64,000 bases of DNA, taken from assembly GCF_037095755.1 (NCBI RefSeq), contig NZ_JBAWKJ010000002.1, positions 868,001 through 932,000 on the forward strand. The letters run 5' to 3'. Origin of the DNA: Sphingopyxis sp. CCNWLW2. GTDB lineage: Bacteria; Pseudomonadota; Alphaproteobacteria; Sphingomonadales; Sphingomonadaceae. The position numbers and the translations under genes were made by a program. Positions 1 to 12,044 of the stretch are shown piece after piece; the first letter of the stretch is position 1, and each line of letters begins with the position of its first letter. The notes beneath the pieces were generated by a model. The model did no database searches, had not been told where the DNA came from, and worked only from the letters and a program-made list of their open reading frames with translations.

Positions 1-1567
1 CCTGGAATTCGGCATAAGGCGCCTCGCCGAACACGACGATCGCAACGTCGGGTTTTTCCTTATAGACGCCGCCGTCGGACAGCGTCGCGACGCCGCCCGC
101 ATCGCGGACCGCCTTGTCCAGCGCCTCCCAGATCGTCTGGCCGTTGGGGAAGTCGGCGTGGGTAACATCGGTCCCCTGCCAGCTGATCGTCCAGCCGCCC
201 GACTGGATCGCCATGCTGTCGGCCGCGGGACCGGTGACGAGCACGCGCGCGCCGGGCTTGATCGGCAGGACGCTGCCGTTGTTCTTGAGCAGGACGAGCG
301 ACTTGGCGACCGCTTCGCGCGCGACCGCCAGATGCTCGGGCGTGCCGACGGCTTTCACGATGCTGCGGTCGACATGGCCTTCGGGGAACAGGCCGAGCTT
401 GTATTTGACGCGCAGGATGCGCCGCACCGCATCGTCGAGGCGCGCCGCTGATATCGTCCCGTCCTTCGCATGTTTCAGCGTGCTGTCGTAAAGCCCTTTC
501 CAGCTGTCGGGGGCCATGAACATGTCGAGCCCGGCGTTGATCGACTGCGCGCAGTCGGTGACGCTGCATCCCGCAACCTGCCCATGCCCGTTCCAGTCGC
601 CGACGACGAAGCCCGCAAAGCCCATCCTGTCCTTGAGCGCGTCGGTCAGCAGCCCTTTGTTGCCGTGATGCTTGACGCCCTGCCAGCTCGAGAAGCTGGC
701 CATCACGGTCAGCGCCCCGGCGTCGATCGCGGCGGGATAGCCCATCGCATGTTTCGCGATCAGTTCCTTCTCGTCGACCTTGGCATCGCCCTGGTCCTTG
801 CCCTCGAACGTCCCGCCATCGGCGAGGAAATGCTTGGCGGTCGCGGCAACATGTGTGCCGTCGACCGTTTTGCCCGCGGCCAGCGGCCCCTGCAGCCCCA
901 GCACCATCGCCTTGGCATATTCGGCGATCAGCTTCGGGTCGGAGGCATAGCCTTCGTAGCTCCGCCCCCAGCGCAGATCCTGGGGCACCGCGAGTGTCGG
1001 GGCAAAGGTCCATTCGATCCCGCTGCCCGCGATTTCCGCGGCGGTGACCGCGCCGATGCGCTGGATCAGCTCGGGATCGCGCGCGGCGCCGAGGCCGATA
1101 TTGTGCGGAAACAGCGTCGCGCCGGGGATATTATTGTGGCCGTGGACGGCATCGACGCCAAAGATGATCGGGATCGCGACGCCGTTCGCCTGCGGGCGCG
1201 AGGACACCGCGCGGAAATCGCCGACCAGCTTCGCCCAGTCGGCGGCGGTCGAGCGTTCATTGCCGTTCGGGCCGCTGTTTCCACCGGCGAGGATCGAGCC
1301 GAGCGGATAGGTTTCGAGATCCTTGGGCGTGATCGTGCTGATGTCGCCCTGGATCAGCTGGCCGACCTTTTGCTCGATCGTCATCTTCTTGATCAGCGCG
1401 TCGATCCGCGCCTCGGTCGCAGCGTCGGTGATGGCCGCGGGACTTTTGGCCGCGGGCCACAATTCGGGATGGACCTTGGCCGCTTCGGCTCCAGTGGTTT
1501 GCGCGGTCGCGGTTGCCGTTCCTGCCAGCAGCAGCGCGGTCGCCATACCCATTGCCTGTCGGCGCAT
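1..1567 (-). CDS. GH3 family beta-glucosidase, 3' end cut by window
   Basis: Exported glycoside hydrolase family 3 enzyme that should release glucose from beta-glucosides or beta-glucan oligomers, probably in the periplasm. A signal peptide of about 22 residues ending near TATAQ is followed by the GH3 N-terminal barrel, with motifs IIFGVDAVHGHNN, AATAKHFLADG and GFVVGDWNGHG; the Asp of GDW is the expected nucleophile. About 522 codons are visible and the C-terminal part lies outside the window. The chosen ATG at 1567 follows a GGGAGAG Shine-Dalgarno stretch; an in-frame ATG at 1588 overlaps a putative operator and is less likely. It is the last visible gene of the sugar locus, downstream of the MFS transporter. 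Family is certain; the exact substrate is inferred. Confidence 0.93.
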   Translation of the reverse strand, partial: MRRQAMGMATALLLAGTATATAQTTGAEAAKVHPELWPAAKSPAAITDAATEARIDALIKKMTIEQKVGQLIQGDISTITPKDLETYPLGSILAGGNSGPNGNERSTAADWAKLVGDFRAVSSRPQANGVAIPIIFGVDAVHGHNNIPGATLFPHNIGLGAARDPELIQRIGAVTAAEIAGSGIEWTFAPTLAVPQDLRWGRSYEGYASDPKLIAEYAKAMVLGLQGPLAAGKTVDGTHVAATAKHFLADGGTFEGKDQGDAKVDEKELIAKHAMGYPAAIDAGALTVMASFSSWQGVKHHGNKGLLTDALKDRMGFAGFVVGDWNGHGQVAGCSVTDCAQSINAGLDMFMAPDSWKGLYDSTLKHAKDGTISAARLDDAVRRILRVKYKLGLFPEGHVDRSIVKAVGTPEHLAVAREAVAKSLVLLKNNGSVLPIKPGARVLVTGPAADSMAIQSGGWTISWQGTDVTHADFPNGQTIWEALDKAVRDAGGVATLSDGGVYKEKPDVAIVVFGEAPYAEFQ

Positions 1568-1587: not shown

Positions 1588-1601
1588 TGTGAACGTTATC
1601 A
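1588..1601. promoter_or_regulatory. Putative LacI-family operator in front of the GH3 gene
   Basis: The 14-mer TGTGAACGTTATCA is a near-palindrome around AACGTT. The same core, differing only in the last base, lies at the -10 element of the TonB receptor gene at 11925-11938. Its place 20 bases before the GH3 start suits a repressor site. The likely binder is the LacI-type protein encoded at 2847-3911. Confidence 0.6.
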
Positions 1602-1657: not shown

Positions 1658-2854
1658 TCAGCGCAGGCGCGGCATCGTCGCGAGCAGCAGCACCGCGATC
1701 GCGGAGAGCCCTGCGAGCAATAGGAAAAGCGCGTCGAACCCGAACCCCGGGACGAGCGAGATCGTCAGCCACGGCATGATCAGCGACGGTACGGTGTTGG
1801 TCAGATTGAAGATGCCAAGGTCGCGCCCGCGCCGGTCCGACCGCGGCAGGATGCGCAACGTCTGGCTGCTATGCAGCGACAGGAACACCGTCGACGCGAT
1901 GCCGAAAACGAGATAGCTCGCCTTCGCCGCGTCGAGCCCCGTCGCCAGCGCCATCCCGACCATCCCGAGGCTCGACACCGCCGCCGCGGCGACAAGCGGC
2001 ACGAAGGGTCGGTCGGTGCGGTCCGCCCAGCGGCCGGCCGCCAGCGCGATCGGGATCGCGATCGTCAGCGCCATGCCGAACAATCGCGCCTTTTCATTGT
2101 CGTGCATGCCGGGATCGATCGAGCGGAACCAGAAATAGAGATAGGCAAACAGCGCCGCCTCGGCGATCTGGACGAGCAGGCGCGCCAGCCACATCCGCAC
2201 CGCCGGGCCGGTCGGCCGCCGCCGCGCCTCCCCAACTGCGCTCGCAGCGGGCGGCGCGGTGAGATCGGGGAATGCGCGCGGGCGGCCAAGCAGCAGCACC
2301 GGCAGGACGGCGCTTGCCACCAGCAGCGCGATGACCACCAGCCGCTGCTCCGCCGACACCAGCCCCGGCCAGGTGACGAGCCATCCCGACCAGCCGCCGA
2401 GCGCCGGCGAAAAGGCGAGCAACCCACCAAGCAGCCCCTTCTGTTCGTCGGGAACGAGGTCGCCCGCCCATGCGGCGAGCGGCCCGAGCATCATGTTGAG
2501 CGTGAGCTGCCAGGCGACGATGATCGCGACGAGCGACCAGATATTATGCGCCAGCGGAACGACCAGCAGCAAGGCGATCGTCAGGACCAGCCCCGCCAAT
2601 ATCCAGCCGCGCCGATTGCGCGTCAGATCGCTGAGCCAGCCGAAACCGATGCCGCCGGCGCTCGCCGCGACGGCACCGAAAAAGGTGACATAGCCCAGCG
2701 TCTGGACGTCGGCCGTCCCCGCCAGCTCGGTCATGCGCCCGGGCAGCCAGATCGTCAGGAAGGGAACATAGGCGATCGCCCCGCCCGCCGACGCGAGCGC
2801 ATAAAGCAGGAGGAAAGGGAGAGACTGGCGGCGCGGAGGCGCGGCTTCAGCCAT
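1658..2854 (-). CDS. MFS transporter, probable sugar importer
   Basis: Inner-membrane major facilitator protein of 398 residues, the usual length for a 12-helix carrier. Hydrophobic segments run throughout, and the loop between helices 2 and 3 carries GFGWLSDLTRNRRGW, a form of the MFS G-x-x-x-D-R/K loop motif. It overlaps the end of the LacI gene by 8 bases, so the two are co-transcribed and probably translationally coupled. In sphingomonad sugar loci such carriers move the mono- or disaccharide made by the periplasmic hydrolase across the inner membrane; that role here is inferred from position between lacI and the GH3 gene. Confidence 0.88.
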   Translation of the reverse strand: MAEAAPPRRQSLPFLLLYALASAGGAIAYVPFLTIWLPGRMTELAGTADVQTLGYVTFFGAVAASAGGIGFGWLSDLTRNRRGWILAGLVLTIALLLVVPLAHNIWSLVAIIVAWQLTLNMMLGPLAAWAGDLVPDEQKGLLGGLLAFSPALGGWSGWLVTWPGLVSAEQRLVVIALLVASAVLPVLLLGRPRAFPDLTAPPAASAVGEARRRPTGPAVRMWLARLLVQIAEAALFAYLYFWFRSIDPGMHDNEKARLFGMALTIAIPIALAAGRWADRTDRPFVPLVAAAAVSSLGMVGMALATGLDAAKASYLVFGIASTVFLSLHSSQTLRILPRSDRRGRDLGIFNLTNTVPSLIMPWLTISLVPGFGFDALFLLLAGLSAIAVLLLATMPRLR

Positions 2855-3911
2855 CGACGGCGACAGGCGGCGCGGCGGTCGATCCGCGCTGGACGAGGCC
2901 GCCCTGCACGCGCGTCGGTTCGGTCGGGCGCGGCGCCCCGCGCTGCGCCGCGATGATCAGCTCGACCGCGCGCGACGCGGTTTCGGCGACCGGCTGGTCG
3001 ACCGCGGTCAGCGCCGGCTGGGTGAAGCGGACGACCGGCGTGTTGTCGAAACTGACGATCGACAATTGTCCCGGCACATCGATGCCGAGGTCGCGCGCGA
3101 CCTCCAAGGTCGCGAGCGCCATCTGGTCGCTGCTCGCGATGATCGCCGTCGGCGGATTGGCGCCGCCCAGCAAGTCCCGCGCCGCGGCGGCGCCCGACGC
3201 ATAGGTAAAATCACCCTCGGCAAGCAGCCCGTCGGTAGAAAGCCCCGCCGCCGCCATTTCGCCTTCCCAGCCGTCGATGCGCCAGCGGCTGAGGCTATAT
3301 TCGGGCGAGCCGGGAATGAACCCGATGCGCTGGTGGCCAAGGTCGATCAGGTGCCGCGTCGCGCGCCGCGCCGATCCTTCGTCATCCATCGTCAGCGCGA
3401 TGCCTGCCGCGCCGCCGCGCGATCCGATGCGCGCGAACGGGATCTTCTGCTGGTCGAGCAGCCCGACGATCAGCGGATTGTCCGAATGCGGCGGGGTCAG
3501 GATCACCCCGTCGGGCTGGAGCGCCGCGATCGCCGCGCGCAGTTCGCGCTCGACATGATCATTGTGCGTGTCGACCAGCTCGAAGATCATGCGGTAGCCA
3601 TATTCGGCGCATTTCAGCATCCCGCCGAGCAGCATCTGGTCGACCCAGTCGACACCCTGCCGCCCCTGCCAGTCGGCGATCGTGCGTTCGCGGTCGTTGA
3701 TCGCGAGGATCAGGTAAGAGCGCGACCCGCTCATCCGCTGCGCCGCGATCGACGGGACATAGCCGAGCTTGTCGATCGACGCCTGGACGCGTTCCTTCAT
3801 TTCGGGCCGGACATTGGGCTCGTTGTTGATGACGCGGCTCACCGTTTGCAGCGACACCCCCGCGTCGGCTGCAACATGCTTGATCGTAACCGACTGCCGC
3901 CGACGCCCCAT
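2847..3911 (-). CDS. LacI-family transcriptional regulator
   Basis: DNA-binding repressor with an N-terminal helix-turn-helix (TIKHVAADAGVSLQTVSRV, near residues 9-27) followed by the hinge segment YVPSIAAQRMSG and a periplasmic-binding-protein-like sugar domain ending in a dimer/effector fold. The ATG at 3911 is chosen because the only longer alternative is a TTG at 3941; GGGAAAG sits a few bases upstream. It lies inside the sugar locus and overlaps the MFS gene. The probable operators are the AACGTT palindromes at 1588, 11925 and 11942. The effector is likely a glucose-containing oligosaccharide, which is inference. Confidence 0.93.
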   Translation of the reverse strand: MGRRRQSVTIKHVAADAGVSLQTVSRVINNEPNVRPEMKERVQASIDKLGYVPSIAAQRMSGSRSYLILAINDRERTIADWQGRQGVDWVDQMLLGGMLKCAEYGYRMIFELVDTHNDHVERELRAAIAALQPDGVILTPPHSDNPLIVGLLDQQKIPFARIGSRGGAAGIALTMDDEGSARRATRHLIDLGHQRIGFIPGSPEYSLSRWRIDGWEGEMAAAGLSTDGLLAEGDFTYASGAAAARDLLGGANPPTAIIASSDQMALATLEVARDLGIDVPGQLSIVSFDNTPVVRFTQPALTAVDQPVAETASRAVELIIAAQRGAPRPTEPTRVQGGLVQRGSTAAPPVAVDG

Positions 3912-4006
3912 TATCTTTCCCGGCCCCCTATCGTGTCGCAATCGCTAACCGCATCGTCGCCACAATGCCAGCCACTAACCCGTTCTGCTTCCATAATTTC
4001 CGCCAT

Positions 4007-5509
4007 TTACGCCGCTTGCGGGACGGCCGCGCCGCAATAGCGGGCGACATAATCCTGATGCGCGGGCAGGCCGGCGACCGTCTGGCGCACCTCGCTGCGG
4101 ATCGCCTCGAGCAACCGGTCGAGCTCGTCGTCGCGCAGCTTTTCGGCGATCGGGTGATGGCTTTGCGGCTCGATCCCCTGCCCCATCATCACCTGCACCC
4201 AGCTGTTTTCGGCGAACAATTCCTCATTCTTGCGGAACACGCGGCCGGTTTCGCGGAACAGCTCGATCTTCTGCGCCAGCGTGTCGGGGATCGGCATCGC
4301 CGCGCAATGACGCCAGAACGGGCTGTCGCGGCGGTTGGTCACCTTGTAATGGAGGACCAGGAAATCGCGGATTTGCAGCATGTCCTGCATCTGCTGCTCG
4401 TTGAATTCGGCGACGTCGCGCTCGCTGACCCGCCCCGCGGGCAGCATACGGATGAAGCGCAGCACCGAACGCTGGATCAGGTGGATCGCGGTCGATTCCA
4501 GCGGCTCCATGAAACCCGCCGACAGCCCGACGGCGACGCAGTTACGATACCATTGCTTGCGCCGCGTGCCCGCGGTGAAGCGCAGGACATTGGGCTCGGT
4601 CAGCACATCGCCCTCGATATTGCCGAGCATACGGTCGAGTGCCGCATCCCTGCCCAGATAGCGGCTGCAATAGACGATGCCGTTGCCGGTACGGTGCTGG
4701 AGCGGGATGCGCCATTGCCAGCCCGCGTCGTGCGCCATCACGCGCGTATAGGGGACCGGCGGATGGACGTTCGGGGTCTGCAGCGCGATCGCACTGTCGC
4801 ACGGCAGGAAGTTACTCCAGTCGTCGAACCCGGCGTGGAGCGCGCCTTCCATCAACAGCGCGCGGAACCCCGTGCAGTCGATGAACATATCGCCCTCGAT
4901 CCGCCGGTCGCCGTCGAGGACGAGCGCCGCGATATCGCCGCTTGTCCCATCGAGCTCGACGCGCGCGATCTTGCCCTCGATGCGCTTCGCTCCGTCGGCC
5001 TCGGCCAGCTCGCGCAGGAAGCCCGCGTAGAGCCCGGAATCGAGCTGATAGGCGTAATTCATGCGATCTTCGGGCAAATGCGCGAACTTGCCCGCGATCG
5101 CGGCCTTCAGCTCCATGCAATAATCGTCATAGGGCTGATCGTGCCCCTTGGTGCGGCCATAGAGCCAGAAATGCTGGAAGCCCGCCGACCAGTGATCCTT
5201 GCCGGTCAGGCCGAAGCTGTGGAAATATTGCGTCCCCAGATCCTTCCAGTCGTCGAACAAGATGCCGAGCTTGAAGGTCGCCTGCGTCGCACGCATGAAA
5301 TCGGCTTCGTTGATGCGCAGGATGCGGTTGAAATTGACCAGCGGCGGAATGGTGGACTCGCCGACGCCGATGGTCCCGATCGCTTCGGATTCGACGAGGG
5401 TCAGGTCGACCGCCTGCCCCAGCGTGCGCGCGATCGCCGCCGCGGCCATCCAACCCGCGGTGCCGCCGCCCGCAATCACGATGCGCTGGACGCGTTTATC
5501 TTCATTCAT
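4007..5509 (-). CDS. Tryptophan 7-halogenase-like FAD protein (copy 1)
   Basis: Flavin-dependent halogenase superfamily protein of 500 residues. The FAD-binding GGGTAGW is at residues 14-20, GVGESTIPP follows near residue 47, and TFKLG holds a Lys at the place of the catalytic Lys79 of PrnA. The halogenase signature W-x-W-x-I-P is intact as WQWRIP, so the fold and active site look complete. The start ATG overlaps the stop of the upstream JmjC gene (ATGA). Proteins of this group are common in TonB-receptor sugar loci of Caulobacterales and Sphingomonadales, where their substrate is unknown; tryptophan halogenation should not be assumed. Confidence 0.88.
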   Translation of the reverse strand: MNEDKRVQRIVIAGGGTAGWMAAAAIARTLGQAVDLTLVESEAIGTIGVGESTIPPLVNFNRILRINEADFMRATQATFKLGILFDDWKDLGTQYFHSFGLTGKDHWSAGFQHFWLYGRTKGHDQPYDDYCMELKAAIAGKFAHLPEDRMNYAYQLDSGLYAGFLRELAEADGAKRIEGKIARVELDGTSGDIAALVLDGDRRIEGDMFIDCTGFRALLMEGALHAGFDDWSNFLPCDSAIALQTPNVHPPVPYTRVMAHDAGWQWRIPLQHRTGNGIVYCSRYLGRDAALDRMLGNIEGDVLTEPNVLRFTAGTRRKQWYRNCVAVGLSAGFMEPLESTAIHLIQRSVLRFIRMLPAGRVSERDVAEFNEQQMQDMLQIRDFLVLHYKVTNRRDSPFWRHCAAMPIPDTLAQKIELFRETGRVFRKNEELFAENSWVQVMMGQGIEPQSHHPIAEKLRDDELDRLLEAIRSEVRQTVAGLPAHQDYVARYCGAAVPQAA

Positions 5510-6537
5510 CGGCTGAGTGTCCTCAACAGGAAAGCGCGGAGACGCCCGGCGCTTTCGGGGGTGAGCCGCGCGAGGATGCTGCGCGCCTTTTCGGGAATAT
5601 GGTGGGTGACCCGGTCGTCATTCTCGAACACATAATGGTCGAACAGCTCGCGCCAGATCGCCTTGTCGTCGGGCGGCAGGTCGCGGATCGCGAGGATTGC
5701 GTGGTTGAGCGCGACCTGCGGCTGCCCCAGCCAGGCGGGCGTGCTGCGCCACCAGTAATTGACCAATACATTGAAGCCGGCGAGCCCTTCGACATGGTGC
5801 CACCACATCGACGGGATGAAGATCGCGTCGCCGGGTTCGAGTTCGATCGTCTGCGCCTCGGCCATCGCATCGACGAAGCGCGGGAAGGCCGCGAGGTCGG
5901 GCGCGTCGAAGTCGACCATGCTCACCGCGCGGCCCGCGGGCGTGTTGTCGATCGGGCCGAGATAGAGGTTGCGGAACTGGTGCGGCGGAAAGAGCGTAAA
6001 GCGGCGTCGTCCGACCGCGCAGCAGGCGAGATTGTCAGGAAAATCATTGTGCGCGGCGATCTTCGTACGCGTGCCGATCCAGATGCTCTTCAGCGGATCG
6101 CGCGTGCCGAGGTCGACCGAATTCGCTTCGTCGAGCCTATCGAAATGCGACGGGATGTCGATCGACGCGAGATAGACGGTGCGGCTTTCGCCCTGTTCCT
6201 CGGCGGCATCGATGCCGCCGAAGATGTCGGCGAGCTTGCCCGTTCCGATGCGGAAATTCATCTCCATCTCGGCGTCGTAGAACAGCCGCCCGTCGTGGCC
6301 GGGCGCGCCGATCGACACCTTGAACGGACGGTCGCGCGCATGACCCAGCAGATAGCGCCGTGCGTCGCGCGCCGACCGTTTGCCCGCCTCGACCAGCGGC
6401 CAGTCGGCCACGAGGCCGCGGAGGACAAAGGGCTCGCGCGCGCCTTCCAGCAACGCGTCGAGCCCCGCCCCCTTATTCCATTCGCGCTCGGCCACCGGCG
6501 CGAGGCGGTCGTATATGGCGCGGTCGCGCTCAGCCAC
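5506..6537 (-). CDS. Cupin-8/JmjC-type oxygenase-like protein
   Basis: Cytosolic protein of 343 residues with a JmjC/cupin-8 fold. The iron-binding HxD is visible in AAHNDFPDN and the distal His in MWWHHVEG, so an Fe(II)/2-oxoglutarate hydroxylase active site looks intact. SIWIGTRTK before the HxD and FTLFPPHQ after it are typical of factor-inhibiting-HIF-like members. It overlaps SapC by 8 bases and the downstream halogenase-like gene by 4, so the three are translated as one unit. The target could be a protein side chain or a small molecule; nothing in the sequence decides this. Confidence 0.85.
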   Translation of the reverse strand: MAERDRAIYDRLAPVAEREWNKGAGLDALLEGAREPFVLRGLVADWPLVEAGKRSARDARRYLLGHARDRPFKVSIGAPGHDGRLFYDAEMEMNFRIGTGKLADIFGGIDAAEEQGESRTVYLASIDIPSHFDRLDEANSVDLGTRDPLKSIWIGTRTKIAAHNDFPDNLACCAVGRRRFTLFPPHQFRNLYLGPIDNTPAGRAVSMVDFDAPDLAAFPRFVDAMAEAQTIELEPGDAIFIPSMWWHHVEGLAGFNVLVNYWWRSTPAWLGQPQVALNHAILAIRDLPPDDKAIWRELFDHYVFENDDRVTHHIPEKARSILARLTPESAGRLRAFLLRTLSR

Positions 6538-7249
6538 CGGCTAGCCTGCGGTTCTTGCGCGCGACGAGCACCGACAACTGCGACAGCGAGGCGAGCGCCA
6601 TGAACATCGGCATCAAATGCCCCGCCGCGTGGAGCGCGCCAAGGGCCTCGCCATCCAGCGCGCGCAGCTTCGCCTCGTCGATGATGTGGAAGCCGACGAG
6701 CGAATGGATCGCCCCGTCGTCGAGCGTGACTTCGAGGCTGAAGGGTTCGAACAGGTCATAGGCGAGCAGCGCGTCGTAAAAGGCACCGCTCTCGCGATAG
6801 CCTTCGTCGAGGTCGCCGAGCCGCTCCGCGATATCGTCGAGATAGGGCGTCGCCATGCCGTCGGTATCGAACAGCCGGATGCCCTCGCCGGTCGCGGCGA
6901 TGCGCGGATGGTCCATATCGATGTGAATCTGCCCCGGACCGCCGCCACTCGCGGGCCGCCCGATCAGGAACGGCTGGATCGCGGCCGACAGCGGGCGATA
7001 GCGCGCATCCCAGCGGTCGCCATCGAGGAACAGATTCTCGCCATTCTCGAACCCGAACATCGCGAGCGCGGTAAATTCCTCGCGCCCGGTTTCGCGGCGG
7101 AAGAGGATCGGGAAATGCGCCTGCACGCGGCGGAACTCGCTCGGCACCGTCAGCGTCGCCATGATGTCGTCACCCAGCTCTGCTCCCGCGTCGGTCCTTA
7201 TACGCAGGTCGCGATGGGTCTTGTTGTCGAGGACGGCGTGACGGGTCAT
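6530..7249 (-). CDS. SapC family protein
   Basis: Protein of 239 residues matching the SapC family first named in Campylobacter S-layer work; its biochemical role is not known. Family-like segments are FPILFRRETGREEFTALAMF, ENLFLDGDRWDARY and YDLFEPFSLEVTL. No signal peptide or membrane helix is seen. The ATG at 7249 is preceded by AGGAAAGG at good spacing; a TTG one codon earlier is less likely. It sits between a halogenase-like gene and a JmjC gene, the order usually found beside TonB receptors in sphingomonads, so it probably works with them on the same substrate or envelope component. Confidence 0.85.
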   Translation of the reverse strand: MTRHAVLDNKTHRDLRIRTDAGAELGDDIMATLTVPSEFRRVQAHFPILFRRETGREEFTALAMFGFENGENLFLDGDRWDARYRPLSAAIQPFLIGRPASGGGPGQIHIDMDHPRIAATGEGIRLFDTDGMATPYLDDIAERLGDLDEGYRESGAFYDALLAYDLFEPFSLEVTLDDGAIHSLVGFHIIDEAKLRALDGEALGALHAAGHLMPMFMALASLSQLSVLVARKNRRLAGG

Positions 7250-7261
7250 CAAATTCCTTTC

Positions 7262-8788
7262 CTATCGCGCCGCGGCTTGGGCACCGGGCGCGAGGGCGTC
7301 GAGATAGTCGCGATTGGCGGGCAGCGCCGCGGCGAGCGCGCGGGCGCGCTGCCGGTTCTCGGCGAGCAAGGCGGCGGCGCGCGCGCTCGCGGGCAGATCG
7401 GCGGGCACCGGATAGCCCATGCCATAGAGGATATATTGGTGGCTTTCGGCCGAGAAAATCTCGTCGACGCGCGGGAAGTCCCATGCCGACGGCGGCTGGT
7501 CGCGCCACAGCTGCAGCATCTCCGTCAGGCGCGGCGGCATATGCGCGGGGTCGCGCTGCGCGCGCCAATAGGGTTCTTCGCGCCGGCTGAGAGCATAGTG
7601 GAGCTTAAGGAACTCGACGATGCGATCCCAGCGATAGCGGAATAGCTCGTTGAACCGATCGGCATGGATCGGCATCGCCGCGCGGCTTGCTGGAAAATTG
7701 TCGATGAGCGCCTTCAGCGACAATTCGATCATCACGATCGCCGACGCCTCCAGCGGTTCGATGAAACCCGCCGACAGGCCGACGGCGACGCAATTGCCTT
7801 CCCAAAACCGCGCACGGTGCCCGGTCGGAAAGGTCAAGCGCCGCGCCGGGACGTCGGGTGCATCGGGCAGGACGCGCGCGATATAGGCGCGCAGCTCCGC
7901 CTCCGCCGCATCGTCTTCCATGAAACGGCTGGCATAGACGCAGCCGATGCCGCGGCGGCCCGGCAGGCCGATGTCCCAGATCCAGCCTGCAGCGTGCGCG
8001 GTCGACACCGTCTGCGACGCGATCGGGCTGCCCGGCGCGACCGGAACCTGCGCCGCGAGCGCGCGGTCGTTGAACAGGACATCGCCGCGATCGATCCACT
8101 CGACGCCGAGATGATTGCCAATCAGCAGCGCCGCATGCCCACTGCAATCGATGAACAGGTCGCCCGCAATGTCACCGTTCTGACGCGTTGCGACCGATGC
8201 GATGCCCCCCGCACCGTCGCGCGCCACATCGACAACATGATCCGCTATATGGCGCACCCCGAGCCGCTGGACGGCATGCGCCGAAAGCAGCGCCGCAAAC
8301 TTCCCCGCATCGAGGTGATAGGCGTAATTCGCCGCCCCCTGATAGTCGGGCATCGCGCGCTGTCGTGGAGCCAGATCAAGGTCGCAGATATGCGCCTGCG
8401 CGGTCATCGCCGCCGCGAACGGCAGGTCGGGCGCGCCGGTCTGCCAGGCCGCGAGCAGCTCGGCGGTCGATGCGGAGGGAGGCGACGTGAACGGGTGCAG
8501 ATAGCGGTCATCCGCGGAGCCGGTCATCCAGCCGTCAAAGCGCGATCCCTGTTTGAACGATCCGTCGCAGGCGGCGAGAAATTCACCCTCGCCGATCCCG
8601 ATCGCCGCCAATGTCGCGCGCATCGTCGGCCAGGTGCCCTCGCCAACCCCGATCGTCGGAATGTCGGGCGCCTCGATCAGCGTGACGTCCAGCTTTGCGG
8701 CGCGGCGCGCGCGGGCGATAAGGCAAGCCGCGAGCCAGCCGGCGGTGCCGCCGCCCACGATGACAACCCTCTCGATCCCGCTATTCAT
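7262..8788 (-). CDS. Tryptophan 7-halogenase-like FAD protein (copy 2)
   Basis: Second flavin-dependent halogenase-like protein, 508 residues, only moderately similar to copy 1. It has GGGTAGW for FAD at residues 13-19, GVGEGTWPT, and SFKQG with the expected catalytic Lys. The W-x-W-x-I-P signature is altered to WIWDIG, so the Pro is replaced by Gly; the chemistry may therefore differ from true halogenases. A hairpin separates it from the TonB receptor gene upstream, and the SapC gene starts 12 bases after its stop. A pair of unlike halogenase paralogues in one operon suggests two successive or alternative steps. Confidence 0.87.
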
Positions 8789-8827
8789 TACCGTCGATCC
8801 TAAGCCAGCTTATCACCGCCGTCACGC

Positions 8828-8861
8828 AAAAGAGCCGCACCCCGAAAGGTGCGACCCTCTT
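8828..8861 (-). terminator. Terminator-like hairpin after the TonB receptor gene
   Basis: An imperfect stem (outer AAGAG/CTCTT, inner GCACC/GGTGC) is followed by TTTT when read on the minus strand. It lies between the receptor stop and the second halogenase gene, so it may set a higher level for the receptor than for the enzymes behind it. Confidence 0.65.
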
Positions 8862-8892
8862 GCCTGCGACCCGGCGGACATGGCCCACCGCC

Positions 8893-11877
8893 TTAGAAGC
8901 TGAACCTGACCCCTGCCGCGTAGCGGGCGAAGCCCGGCTGCACGAAGGTGACATTGTTCTTGTGACGAAGATGCCCGCGGCGCCCCTCGCCGGTGAGGTT
9001 GATCGCCTCGACGAAGCCGGTCAGGCCGGGGATGAACTCGTAGCTCGCGCTCGCGTCGATCTGCCAATATTCCTCGGTATAGAAGGGGTTGGGCCCCGTT
9101 CCCGCGAGAAATTCATCGCGCCAGTTCCACGCGACACGCGCCTGAAGCCCGTTCTTGTCGTAATAGGCGACCGCGTTGGCGCTGTCGCTGAGCCCGGTCA
9201 ACGCGAATTGCGGCACCGACGACGGCTGGGTGTTGTCGTATGTCGCGTCGCCGTCGACCTTCGTATAGTTCAGGATCACGCCGAAACCCGTATCCCAGAA
9301 GCTGTGCTGGAGCGCGAACTCCCAGCCGTTGAGCGAGGCCTTTTGATCGCTGTTGATCGGTGTCGTGATCTCGAAATTGACGAGCGGATCACCCGGCGCG
9401 GCGTTGATGATATTGCCCGTGACCGTGCTCGGGAAATTGGTGATGATATATTGCCGGATTTGGCCGACCGTCGCATTCGCGCCGAGCGCGGCCAGCGCCG
9501 CGTTCCAGCGCGGTCCGCCGATCGGGGTTGTCAATCCGAAGGCATTGGCGTCGATGCGCGTCGACGAGATGAAATTGCTCACATCCTTGTGGAAATAGCC
9601 CACCGAAATATAGCTGTCGCGCGCATAATACCATTCGGCCGACAGATCGATATTCTTCGACTTATAGGGGATCAGCCCCGGGTTGCCCTGCGCACCCGTG
9701 CCGCCGCCGACGCGGAACAGCGTATCGATCGTGCGTCCACCCTGCATGCTGGCATAGTCGGGGCGCGTGATCGTGTGGCTGTACGAGGCGCGCAGCTTGA
9801 CATTCTCCATCGGCGAGATGTCGAAATCGACCGCGGGCAGCCAATTGTCGTAGGACCCTTTGAAGCGCGTGAAATCGCTGTCGCCCGAAAAGACGACGTT
9901 GAGCTCATTGTCGCCGACCCAGCGTGTGGTCGTCGGCACCGGCACCAGCGCCGACGACGCAATGTCGGTCGTTTCGTACCGGATGCCCGCGACGAAATGC
10001 GCCGGGTTCTGGAACAGGTCGAACACGGTCGCGACTTGCAGATAGGGCGCCAGCGTCTTTTCCGAAATACGCCGGTCGGTGTTGAAATTGGCAAGGCACG
10101 TGCCCGGCTGAGCCGAACCAGTGGCGGGATTGCTGCACGTCTGGAAATTCTGTTCGACCAGATCGGCCATGCGCTCAAAATCGAAGCTGTAGAAGCTCTG
10201 GATCATCCCCGTCTGGGCGAGTCCGGGGAATTTGTCGGGCAGCGTGACGAGCGTGAAGATATCGTCGGGAATGCTCGACGCCGGCCCCGCTCCGCCCCAT
10301 GTGTCGTCGTTCTGGATCGTGCCGAACGCCGAGCGCACCTTGCTGTCGACGTAAGACACGCCGAAATCGATGCTGTCGAGGAAGCCGCCGTCATGGTCAT
10401 ATTGACCACGCAGCTGCACCTGGTTGATCCGGTTGCGGAAGAAAGCGTTGCGGAACGCATTGCCGGTCGGCGTGATCAGCGACGGGTTCAGCGGATCGAT
10501 ACCGGGGAACATATTATAGGAAATGACCGGCAGATCGTTCTCGAAATTGACCGTCTGGTTCTGGACGCCGAAGACCGCATTGCCCAGCGACATGCTCGAC
10601 CCGAACCGGTTGACCGGATTCACCTCGGCGGTCGAATGATGGCCGTCGAGTTCGAAGGTGACGCCGCCCGGCCCCTTCCATTCGAGGTTGACGCCCAGCG
10701 AATTGTTCTCGGCGCGATTTTCGATCAGCGCGCCGCTGTACGACAAATCCTTGCCGCCATAGAGCGCGTTCGGGCCGGGAACGCCAGTGGGCGCGGCGAA
10801 CCGCTCGGTGTAGAAGAGCGGGCCGGCGACGGGGCCGTCGGTCCATGCGCTCGACGTGTCTTCGTGGTTGAACCACACGCCGACATTGCTGTTGCGCGTT
10901 TCGACGGTGTTGCGCGAATAGATATAATCGACCGTCGCGGTGAACGCGTCGCTCGGGCGGAACTGCAATACCGCCTGGCCGTTGATGCGCTCGCGATTAA
11001 TGTCCTCAAGAGCGTAGGACGCATTCTGCGGCACCTGATAGACGTCGGTCGGATCGGGACGGTTGGTAATGTTCGCCGCGCGCGGCGTGCCGGGCTGCGC
11101 GAGCGAGCCCCAGTTATTCTCGCTGCCGAGATAGCCGTCGCGCCAACCGACGCTGGCAGTGTTCGTGCTCGACTTGCGCTTCTGGTACGAACCGACGAGC
11201 GCAATGCCGATCGTATCATCGGCAAAGGTGGTGCTGAAGATGCCCGATACTTCGGGAGTGATCGGCTTGCCTTCGTTACGCGAGCTGTCGTACACACCCT
11301 TCATCGACAGGCTGCCACGCATCCCGGGATTGTCGAGCGGGCGCGGCGTGCGGATGTTGACGACCGAGCCGATCCCGCCCGATTCCATCGTCGCGCGGCC
11401 GCTCTTATAGACTTCGACCGCCGCAATGCCTTCGGACGCGAGATTGGCGAAGTCGAACGAACGCGACGACGGGGCGCTACCACCGTCACCGATCAGCGCG
11501 GTCGGCATCTGGCGGCCGTTGACGGTCACCAGGTTGAACTCGGGACCGAAGCCGCGAACGGTGATCAGCGAGCCTTCGCCATTCTGTCGGTCGATCGACA
11601 CGCCGGTGATGCGCTGCAGCGATTCGGCGAGGTTGGTGTCGGGGAATTTGCCGATGTCTTCGGCCGAGATCGCGTCGACGACGCCCTGCGCCTCGCGCTT
11701 GATATCGGCTGATGCGGCGAGGCTGGCGCGGATGCCAGTGACGACGATCTCGTCGCCGTTCACTTCGCCTTCGGCCGGCGCTTCCTGCGCGGCGGCCGCT
11801 TGCGCCATGCCCATCAAGGACAGCGCCGACGTGCCGACCAGAAATTTGGCAAACCACTGCTTTTGAGACGCCCGCAT
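8893..11877 (-). CDS. TonB-dependent receptor, Caulobacter type
   Basis: Outer-membrane active transporter of about 994 residues. A signal peptide ends near AAAAQE, then comes the plug domain with DEIVVTGIRASL, DIGKFPDTNLAESLQRI and TVRGFGPEFNLVTVNGRQMP, then a 22-strand barrel region, and the C-terminus ends in a typical aromatic strand (AGVRFSF). ATG at 11877 is chosen since GGAGG lies 7 bases upstream; an ATG at 11883 and a TTG at 11892 are in frame. It leads the sugar locus behind a strong promoter with two operator-like sites. The ligand is probably a beta-glucan oligosaccharide, inferred from the GH3 gene. Confidence 0.95.
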   Translation of the reverse strand: MRASQKQWFAKFLVGTSALSLMGMAQAAAAQEAPAEGEVNGDEIVVTGIRASLAASADIKREAQGVVDAISAEDIGKFPDTNLAESLQRITGVSIDRQNGEGSLITVRGFGPEFNLVTVNGRQMPTALIGDGGSAPSSRSFDFANLASEGIAAVEVYKSGRATMESGGIGSVVNIRTPRPLDNPGMRGSLSMKGVYDSSRNEGKPITPEVSGIFSTTFADDTIGIALVGSYQKRKSSTNTASVGWRDGYLGSENNWGSLAQPGTPRAANITNRPDPTDVYQVPQNASYALEDINRERINGQAVLQFRPSDAFTATVDYIYSRNTVETRNSNVGVWFNHEDTSSAWTDGPVAGPLFYTERFAAPTGVPGPNALYGGKDLSYSGALIENRAENNSLGVNLEWKGPGGVTFELDGHHSTAEVNPVNRFGSSMSLGNAVFGVQNQTVNFENDLPVISYNMFPGIDPLNPSLITPTGNAFRNAFFRNRINQVQLRGQYDHDGGFLDSIDFGVSYVDSKVRSAFGTIQNDDTWGGAGPASSIPDDIFTLVTLPDKFPGLAQTGMIQSFYSFDFERMADLVEQNFQTCSNPATGSAQPGTCLANFNTDRRISEKTLAPYLQVATVFDLFQNPAHFVAGIRYETTDIASSALVPVPTTTRWVGDNELNVVFSGDSDFTRFKGSYDNWLPAVDFDISPMENVKLRASYSHTITRPDYASMQGGRTIDTLFRVGGGTGAQGNPGLIPYKSKNIDLSAEWYYARDSYISVGYFHKDVSNFISSTRIDANAFGLTTPIGGPRWNAALAALGANATVGQIRQYIITNFPSTVTGNIINAAPGDPLVNFEITTPINSDQKASLNGWEFALQHSFWDTGFGVILNYTKVDGDATYDNTQPSSVPQFALTGLSDSANAVAYYDKNGLQARVAWNWRDEFLAGTGPNPFYTEEYWQIDASASYEFIPGLTGFVEAINLTGEGRRGHLRHKNNVTFVQPGFARYAAGVRFSF

Positions 11878-11924
11878 CCCCATTCCTCCCAAATAGCCGC
11901 TCTTTTTTTGGCAGCATTCCGTTA

Positions 11925-11938
11925 TGTGAACGTTATCT
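11925..11938. promoter_or_regulatory. Putative LacI-family operator O2 (receptor promoter)
   Basis: TGTGAACGTTATCT, near-palindromic, overlaps the -10 hexamer of the receptor promoter and differs by one base from the site before the GH3 gene. Its centre is 17 bases from the next operator. Confidence 0.65.
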
Positions 11939-11962
11939 AAATGGGAACGTTCTCATTGTCAA
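11934..11962 (-). promoter_or_regulatory. Strong sigma-70-type promoter of the TonB receptor gene
   Basis: Read on the minus strand, TTGACA (11957-11962) and TAGATA (11934-11939) are separated by exactly 17 bases. The spacer is filled by one operator-like palindrome and the -10 box is overlapped by another, an arrangement expected for repression by promoter occlusion. Confidence 0.75.
11942..11955. promoter_or_regulatory. Putative LacI-family operator O1 (receptor promoter)
   Basis: TGGGAACGTTCTCA is an almost perfect palindrome around AACGTT and lies wholly between the -35 and -10 elements of the receptor promoter. Confidence 0.68.
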
Positions 11963-12044
11963 CGCAAAGGCTGTGGCATTTCGGTCACAATATTACAGAT
12001 TCTGTGCCGCAAACGTATGCAACATAATAAGGGAAAGTCCGCTA

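Follow-up and report, generated by a model that had tools for sequence, protein, structure and literature searches.

A LacI-family gene and a TonB-dependent receptor share one gene cluster

The window, by which we mean the whole stretch of 64,000 nucleotides of Sphingopyxis sp. CCNWLW2 DNA that was analysed, carries a gene cluster on its minus strand in the order receptor, halogenase-family protein 2, SapC, Cupin_8, halogenase-family protein 1, LacI, MFS and GH3:

8893..11883, minus strand: TonB-dependent receptor (Pfam Plug and TonB barrel; start at ATG 11883 or 11877)
7262..8788, minus strand: tryptophan-halogenase-family protein 2 (Pfam Trp_halogenase, 402 bits)
6530..7252, minus strand: SapC-family protein (Pfam, 208 bits)
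5506..6537, minus strand: Cupin_8 protein (Pfam, 226 bits)
4007..5509, minus strand: tryptophan-halogenase-family protein 1 (Pfam, 604 bits)
2847..3941, minus strand: LacI-family transcription factor, the presumed operator binder (longest frame; ATG 3911 is the likely start)
1658..2854, minus strand: MFS transporter, overlapping the LacI gene (Pfam MFS_1, 69.6 bits)
1..1567, minus strand: GH3 exo-glucanase (Pfam GH3 N, GH3 C and Exop_C; 827 aa from that start)

The receptor scores 621.8 bits against the NCBIfam model TonB-Xanth-Caul (cut-off 310), and the GH3 enzyme, whose gene extends past the left window edge, has an exo-1,3/1,4-beta-glucanase as its closest solved chain (3usz, 690 bits). 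For halogenase-family protein 1 the closest solved chain is 6y1w (663 bits), and the GWQWRIP stretch is kept. The preliminary description of this DNA had placed a LacI-family gene in the same locus as a pair of palindromes, and Pfam confirms it at 2847–3941. The family is recognised by an N-terminal LacI helix-turn-helix together with a periplasmic-binding-protein-like sensor domain, and this protein, which shares 98% identity with its counterparts in Sphingopyxis sp. LC81 and H053, has both (PF00356, 60.8 bits, cut-off 27; PF13377, Peripla_BP_3, 126.8 bits, cut-off 26.5). Aligned with LacI, the protein matches as far as LacI residue 333 of 360, and 5 residues remain; as the tetramer helix of LacI lies beyond that point, the protein should lack this helix and form dimers.

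Two palindromes lie within the presumed receptor promoter

Read 5' to 3' on the minus strand, the DNA upstream of the receptor contains the arrangement TTGACA-A-TGAGAACGTTCCCA-TTT-AGATAACGTTCACA, which we divide into the following elements:

11957..11962, minus strand: −35 element TTGACA of the presumed TonB-receptor promoter (from the sequence; 6/6 consensus positions)
11942..11955, minus strand: predicted operator 1, TGAGAACGTTCCCA, in the promoter spacer (12/12 half-site positions; kept in relatives)
11934..11939, minus strand: presumed −10 element TAGATA, weak (3/6 positions of TATAAT, without the final T)
11925..11938, minus strand: predicted operator 2, AGATAACGTTCACA, overlapping the −10 element (11/12 half-site positions)

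The coordinates of both palindromes, the filling of the spacer by one and the overlap of the other with the −10 element, and the 17-bp distance between their centres all agree with what had been described earlier. The same description had called the promoter close to consensus, which is right for the −35 element and overstated for the −10 element. The two hexamers stand 17 bases apart, where a sigma-70 promoter calls for TTGACA and a TATAAT-like hexamer at 16–18 bp, and an alternative −10 hexamer, GATAAC (4/6), is present at 19-bp spacing. A sigma-70 promoter scan did not report the twin-element promoter, because the scan requires the final T of the −10 element that TAGATA lacks. The centres of the two palindromes lie 49 and 66 bp upstream of ATG 11883, or 55 and 72 bp upstream of ATG 11877.

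Near-exact copies of the motif precede sugar genes

For the later counts we used the half-site TGNKAAC, a widening of the earlier TGNGAACGTTNTCA that was made after the sites in the organism's own genome had been seen. Only three 14-mers in the 64-kb window match this half-site at 11 or more of 12 positions, namely operators 1 and 2 and a further site upstream of the GH3 gene:

1588..1601, minus strand: predicted third operator, TGATAACGTTCACA, with its centre some 28 bp ahead of the GH3 start, just outside the positional range that we applied to operators

The preliminary description had proposed a whole-genome search for the motif, and the outcome favours its reading. The exact sequence TGNKAACGTTMNCA occurs three times in the 4,617,968 bases of the genome, compared with none for the reversed control and about 0.38 expected from the base composition of the window, and all three copies stand just upstream of sugar genes: the receptor and the GH3 glucanase, both in the window, and a GH5 glucanase on the same contig, some 0.8 Mb distant (site at C2:66258, gene start at C2:66232). 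The second receptor palindrome, one mismatch from TGNKAACGTTMNCA, is the fourth site in the genome. All four share an AACGTT core and are thus even palindromes with a central CG, the form that most LacI-family motifs take in the available text of PMC4052901.

Looser searches gave a different picture. With up to two mismatches, TGNGAACGTTNTCW has 6 matches in the window against a shuffle mean of 4.8, so that the motif is not unusual at this stringency, and the genome-wide count at up to two mismatches shows no excess (132, against 183 for the reversed control). We therefore regard only near-exact matches as meaningful and made no use of loose searches. A joint promoter pattern, TTGAC-N5-GAACGTT-NN-CA-N-TTAG-N-T, composed after the twin element and its relatives had been seen, matches once in the window and never in 100 shuffles.

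The sites recur upstream of the same genes in related loci

Conservation was analysed in loci encoding relatives of the LacI-family protein, from which the best 80 of 145 were kept (1,487,847 bases). The exact motif occurs 96 times in these best 80 of 145 loci, compared with no occurrence of the reversed control and a mean of 0.28 (maximum 4) for 60 permuted palindromes; allowing one mismatch gives 191 occurrences against 16 for the control. Sites were then assigned to gene classes if they had at most one mismatch, an intact AACGTT and a position no more than 300 bp upstream, leaving aside genes below 45% identity, matches starting after the first 60 residues and genes with less than 300 bp of upstream sequence. 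By this rule, and again among the best 80 of 145 loci, every receptor of at least 45% identity (38/38) and nearly every GH3 gene (74/76, the exceptions being L080 and L091) has an upstream site. The corresponding counts in the same best 80 of 145 loci are 0/74 for MFS, 0/40 for cupin, 1/40 for SapC, 2/79 for LacI, 4/65 for halogenase 1 and 7/34 for halogenase 2 genes, and the reversed control yields no upstream site in any class. Because the loci are related, these counts are not to be taken as independent events.

In 29 of the 80 loci the receptor is a distant one only (about 31–43% identity), and a site with one mismatch, at most 500 bp upstream of the matched part, was found in 5 of these 29; in 11 of the 80 there was no receptor match near the LacI gene. 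With 5 of 29 distant-receptor loci carrying a site, the evidence for control of the receptor extends only to clusters of the close-receptor type. In some distant-receptor loci (L073, L082, L084, L094 and L098) TGTGAACGTTCATA or TGAGAACGTTCATA stands upstream of the receptor. A shifted motif at distant receptors could explain why the other 24 loci were missed.

Spacing and promoter context of the paired sites

We next compared 39 receptor promoters, that of the window and those of 38 relatives at 55% identity or more; 38 of the 40 close-receptor loci were retained, L026 and L034 being left out as cut near a contig end. The centres are 17 bp apart in 19 of the 39, 18 bp in 15 and 32 bp in 2, and operator 2 is degenerate in L055 and L092, both of the 18-bp group. 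Three promoters have a single site (operator 1 only in two, operator 2 only in one), and together with the two at 32 bp they indicate that the twin arrangement is common and not required. In 38 of the 39, TTGAC is followed by an AACGTT core that begins 11 bases on from the first T of TTGAC. The exception, L059, has lost the upstream site (operator 1) and keeps TTGAC and TAGGTG at the same distance, so the −35 element seems to be held for its own sake. At the −10 distance the hexamer is TAGATA in 18, TAGGTG in 14 and another sequence in 7 of the 39. In both the 17- and the 18-bp group the hexamer found 17 bases after TTGACN starts with TA (CA in L055), and it is operator 2 that shifts by one base.

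The 18-bp group is the more informative of the two. Its 13 distinct sequences come from several genera, and in them the flanks show no conservation; TTGAC, both operators and the TTAG link are kept nearly throughout, a conservation limited to the stretch from TTGAC to operator 2, as for a protein-binding footprint. The 18 distinct sequences of the 17-bp group come from close relatives with partly conserved flanks, so that this group alone would prove less. A promoter entered these column counts if the pair came first among its listed sites, which excluded a few that have a spurious match upstream. Across 296 genomes of the order, the pattern TTGAC-N5-GAACGTT-NN-CA-N-TTAG has matches in 9, of which 7 are among the 16 same-genus genomes (the organism's own included), with a control of 0 among the matches listed.

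That the palindromes arose by chance is an explanation we hold to be negligible. It could draw on the commonness of loose matches in the window, on the missing two-mismatch excess genome-wide and on the AT-richness of the promoter region (41% GC over 11900–12000, against 65% for the whole window); yet it would have to account for 96 exact matches against 0 in the best 80 of 145 loci, at fixed positions before the same genes, and for conservation confined to the twin element in the 18-bp group.

At 10.5 bp per turn, 17–18 bp corresponds to about 1.6–1.7 turns of the helix, which would place the two dimers on roughly opposite faces and does not favour direct contact between them. Tandem sites suited to cooperative binding have centres near 22 or 32 bp, on the same helix face, and the 17 bp of the window differ from both. 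The pair might consequently act as two independent blocks rather than through contact-driven cooperation. In the available text of PMC4052901, multiple sites occur in about 20% of LacI-regulated operons and the spacings of tandem sites peak at 13, 22 and 32 bp; the promoters compared here, with 17 or 18 bp in 34/39 and 32 bp in 2, depart from this pattern, and the earlier designation of the pair as a textbook design does not quite hold.

The motif tracks the LacI-family orthologue

Across 149 genomes of the family, the exact motif is present in 40 of the 46 with a close orthologue of the LacI-family protein and in 7 of the 103 without one (Fisher p about 1e-22, in a test that ignores shared ancestry); orthologues were taken at a best E of 5e-90 or better, the next value being 5e-68, a cut-off set after the list had been seen. 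No exact site was found in the remaining six of the 46 orthologue-bearing genomes. In most of the best 80 of 145 loci the motif is also found close to the LacI gene, and the helix stretch VSLQTVSRVI is found in 78 of these 80; L080 reads VSLQTVSRVL, and in L075 the search pattern for this stretch found nothing. The proposal that the twin palindromes are operators of the LacI protein of the locus is supported in both respects, by a motif that recurs before the same genes in relatives and by a presence that follows the orthologue. A LacI-family regulon is expected to leave this combination in related genomes, with sites retained ahead of orthologous sugar genes and the regulator present alongside them; distant receptors are the exception. 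The 2847–3941 protein very probably uses these sites as its operators.

That they are real operators of another LacI-family protein of the same genome, or are common to two, appears unlikely. Similar motifs may be recognised by other LacI proteins too, given that seven genomes of the family carry the exact motif and no close orthologue, and the genome itself has eight LacI-family genes; a paralogous GH3/TonB divergon (G000:C2:1321969) has the related TGTCAACGTTGTCA, about 3.3 kb from a LacI paralogue at C2:1317701–1318717. The helix stretch of that paralogue, however, reads VSPKSVSR against VSLQTVSR and its gene lies beside a different motif, whereas the motif described here strongly tracks the 2847–3941 orthologue and, in most of the 80 loci, lies close to its gene. 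At the divergon itself (L006, L009), the GH3 protein is 59% and the TonB receptor 33% identical, and TGTCAACGTTGTCA is accompanied by TGTCAAGGTTGACA, with centres 63 bp apart.

Probable regulon targets and a model of repression

To these sites near the LacI gene the orthologue-bearing genomes, the organism's own apart, add 27 distant ones (located over 15 kb from the LacI gene or on a different contig). Their neighbours were typed by tblastn with 14 query proteins, five of them taken from the same loci: 24 of the 27 adjoin GH16 (10), a secreted 370-residue family (7), GH3 (3), zwf (2) or pckA (2), and 3 adjoin none of these classes. As the GH16, 370-residue, zwf and pckA classes were named from the same sites, the 24/27 is descriptive and tests no forecast. 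Pfam confirmed GH16 in two of the ten, G6PD in one and PEPCK in one. Seven sites lie in genomes without the orthologue, one adjoining a distant GH3 gene (29%) and six adjoining none of the queries. Taken family-wide, the targets GH3, GH5, GH16, receptor, zwf and pckA point to beta-glucans or their oligosaccharides as the likely substrate. Across the family no class is targeted at a distance more often than GH16, but the window's genome has no GH16 gene, so we do not claim laminarin as a substrate here.

Several of these neighbours merit separate mention. The motif precedes the secreted family of about 370 residues in L159, L162, L170, L171, L174, L183 and L201; one member tested has no Pfam match, and our guess is that the family is possibly a glucan-binding protein. 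In L160, L161, L163, L175 and L182 the motif lies between divergent GH16 and M1-peptidase-like genes (named by eye). An exact motif precedes zwf (glucose-6-phosphate dehydrogenase) in L166 and L168 and pckA (PEP carboxykinase) in L167 and L181, which suggests an extension of the local regulon to sugar flux in some relatives.

We consider it highly probable that the palindromes are tandem operators of the cluster's LacI repressor, which would co-control the receptor, GH3 and GH5 and be released by a beta-gluco-oligosaccharide or glucose. Sequence, conservation, genome-wide placement and co-occurrence with the LacI gene were obtained directly; from them we infer repression as the sign of control, the dimeric state, the class of ligand and 2847–3941 as the binder. 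Without ligand, one dimer would occupy the promoter spacer and another the −10 and start region, keeping RNA polymerase from the receptor promoter, and single operators of the same kind would hold down GH3 here and GH5 at its remote position. A beta-gluco-oligosaccharide, or glucose made from it, would release the repressor, and the outer-membrane receptor and the secreted glucanases would be switched on together.

It is very unlikely that the protein is instead an activator or a dual regulator at the receptor promoter. A weak −10 element (3/6 here, and 2/6 for the TAGGTG of many relatives) could call for an activator, and the zwf and pckA sites of some relatives resemble targets of the global alphaproteobacterial regulators described in the available text of PMC4052901. 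Both operators nevertheless lie inside the promoter, one between the −35 and −10 elements and the other over the −10 element, where a bound dimer should block the polymerase, and the GH3 and GH5 sites are also close to the start codon.

Halogenase-family genes in the cluster

Two halogenase-family proteins sit in this sugar-uptake cluster, and many of the best 80 of 145 loci have a relative of halogenase 1 close to the LacI gene. In eight loci (L035, L036, L037, L038, L039, L041, L044 and L050) there is a further one-mismatch site, TAGGAACGTTCCCA (TAGGAACGTTCTCA in L036), which precedes halogenase 2 in seven of them and SapC in L039. The window, with only three strong sites in its 64 kb, has none before halogenase 2 or SapC, so that the halogenase genes would come under the same control here only by transcriptional read-through. 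The gap that such transcription would cross holds one further feature:

8826..8863, minus strand: hairpin of seventeen pairs between the receptor and halogenase 2 (folded; −28.1 kcal/mol alone)

It has TTTT inside its 3' arm and no T run after it, and a terminator scan of the window did not list it; it is a possible terminator or processing site and may mark a divide between the receptor and the halogenase genes. A second halogenase gene is known next to BrvH in a metagenome cluster (PMC5945002), where the available text contains none of the words TonB, SapC or sugar; TonB, SapC, LacI and carbohydrate are likewise absent from the available text of PMC8269204.

Relation to described systems and significance

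Among described systems, the nearest by description are BglR1-3 and GluR of the Caulobacterales, predicted LacI-family regulons that have in common with the present one an alphaproteobacterial LacI-family regulator and predicted beta-glucoside use (available text of PMC4052901). GluR is predicted there to govern zwf, the gene that adjoins a site in two of our relatives, and neither "sphingo" nor "TonB" occurs in the main text of that paper. The sux locus of Xanthomonas campestris, with its regulator SuxR, similarly joins a LacI-family regulator, an MFS transporter and a TonB receptor in one carbohydrate-utilisation locus; its substrate is sucrose, and "halogenase" does not occur in the available text (PMC1790865). 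A literature search at the level of titles found no paper title naming the locus studied here. A sphingomonad counterpart of the regulon may already be listed in RegPrecise.

Judged by sequence comparison, the assignment of the sites as operators of a local LacI-family beta-glucan regulon is well supported, and the switch would be of an ordinary kind. More tentatively, and with rather less than even confidence, we propose a family-wide sphingomonad beta-glucan regulon that takes in both halogenase-family flavoenzymes, SapC and the cupin, which would then serve glycan uptake and not natural-product chemistry, and that uses an unusual 17/18-bp twin operator in which the −35 element and the start of the −10 element are fixed, operator 2 slides by one base, the −10 element is rebuilt (TAGATA or TAGGTG) and the dimers sit on opposite faces of the promoter.

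What had been an anonymous LacI gene with its neighbours becomes a defined, testable beta-glucan regulon, with a motif that finds targets across the Sphingomonadaceae. The halogenase-family, SapC and cupin genes are tied by position to a sugar-uptake receptor, and the natural operator arrangements (17, 18 and 32 bp, and the single site) offer material for studying the blocking of a single promoter by paired repressors.
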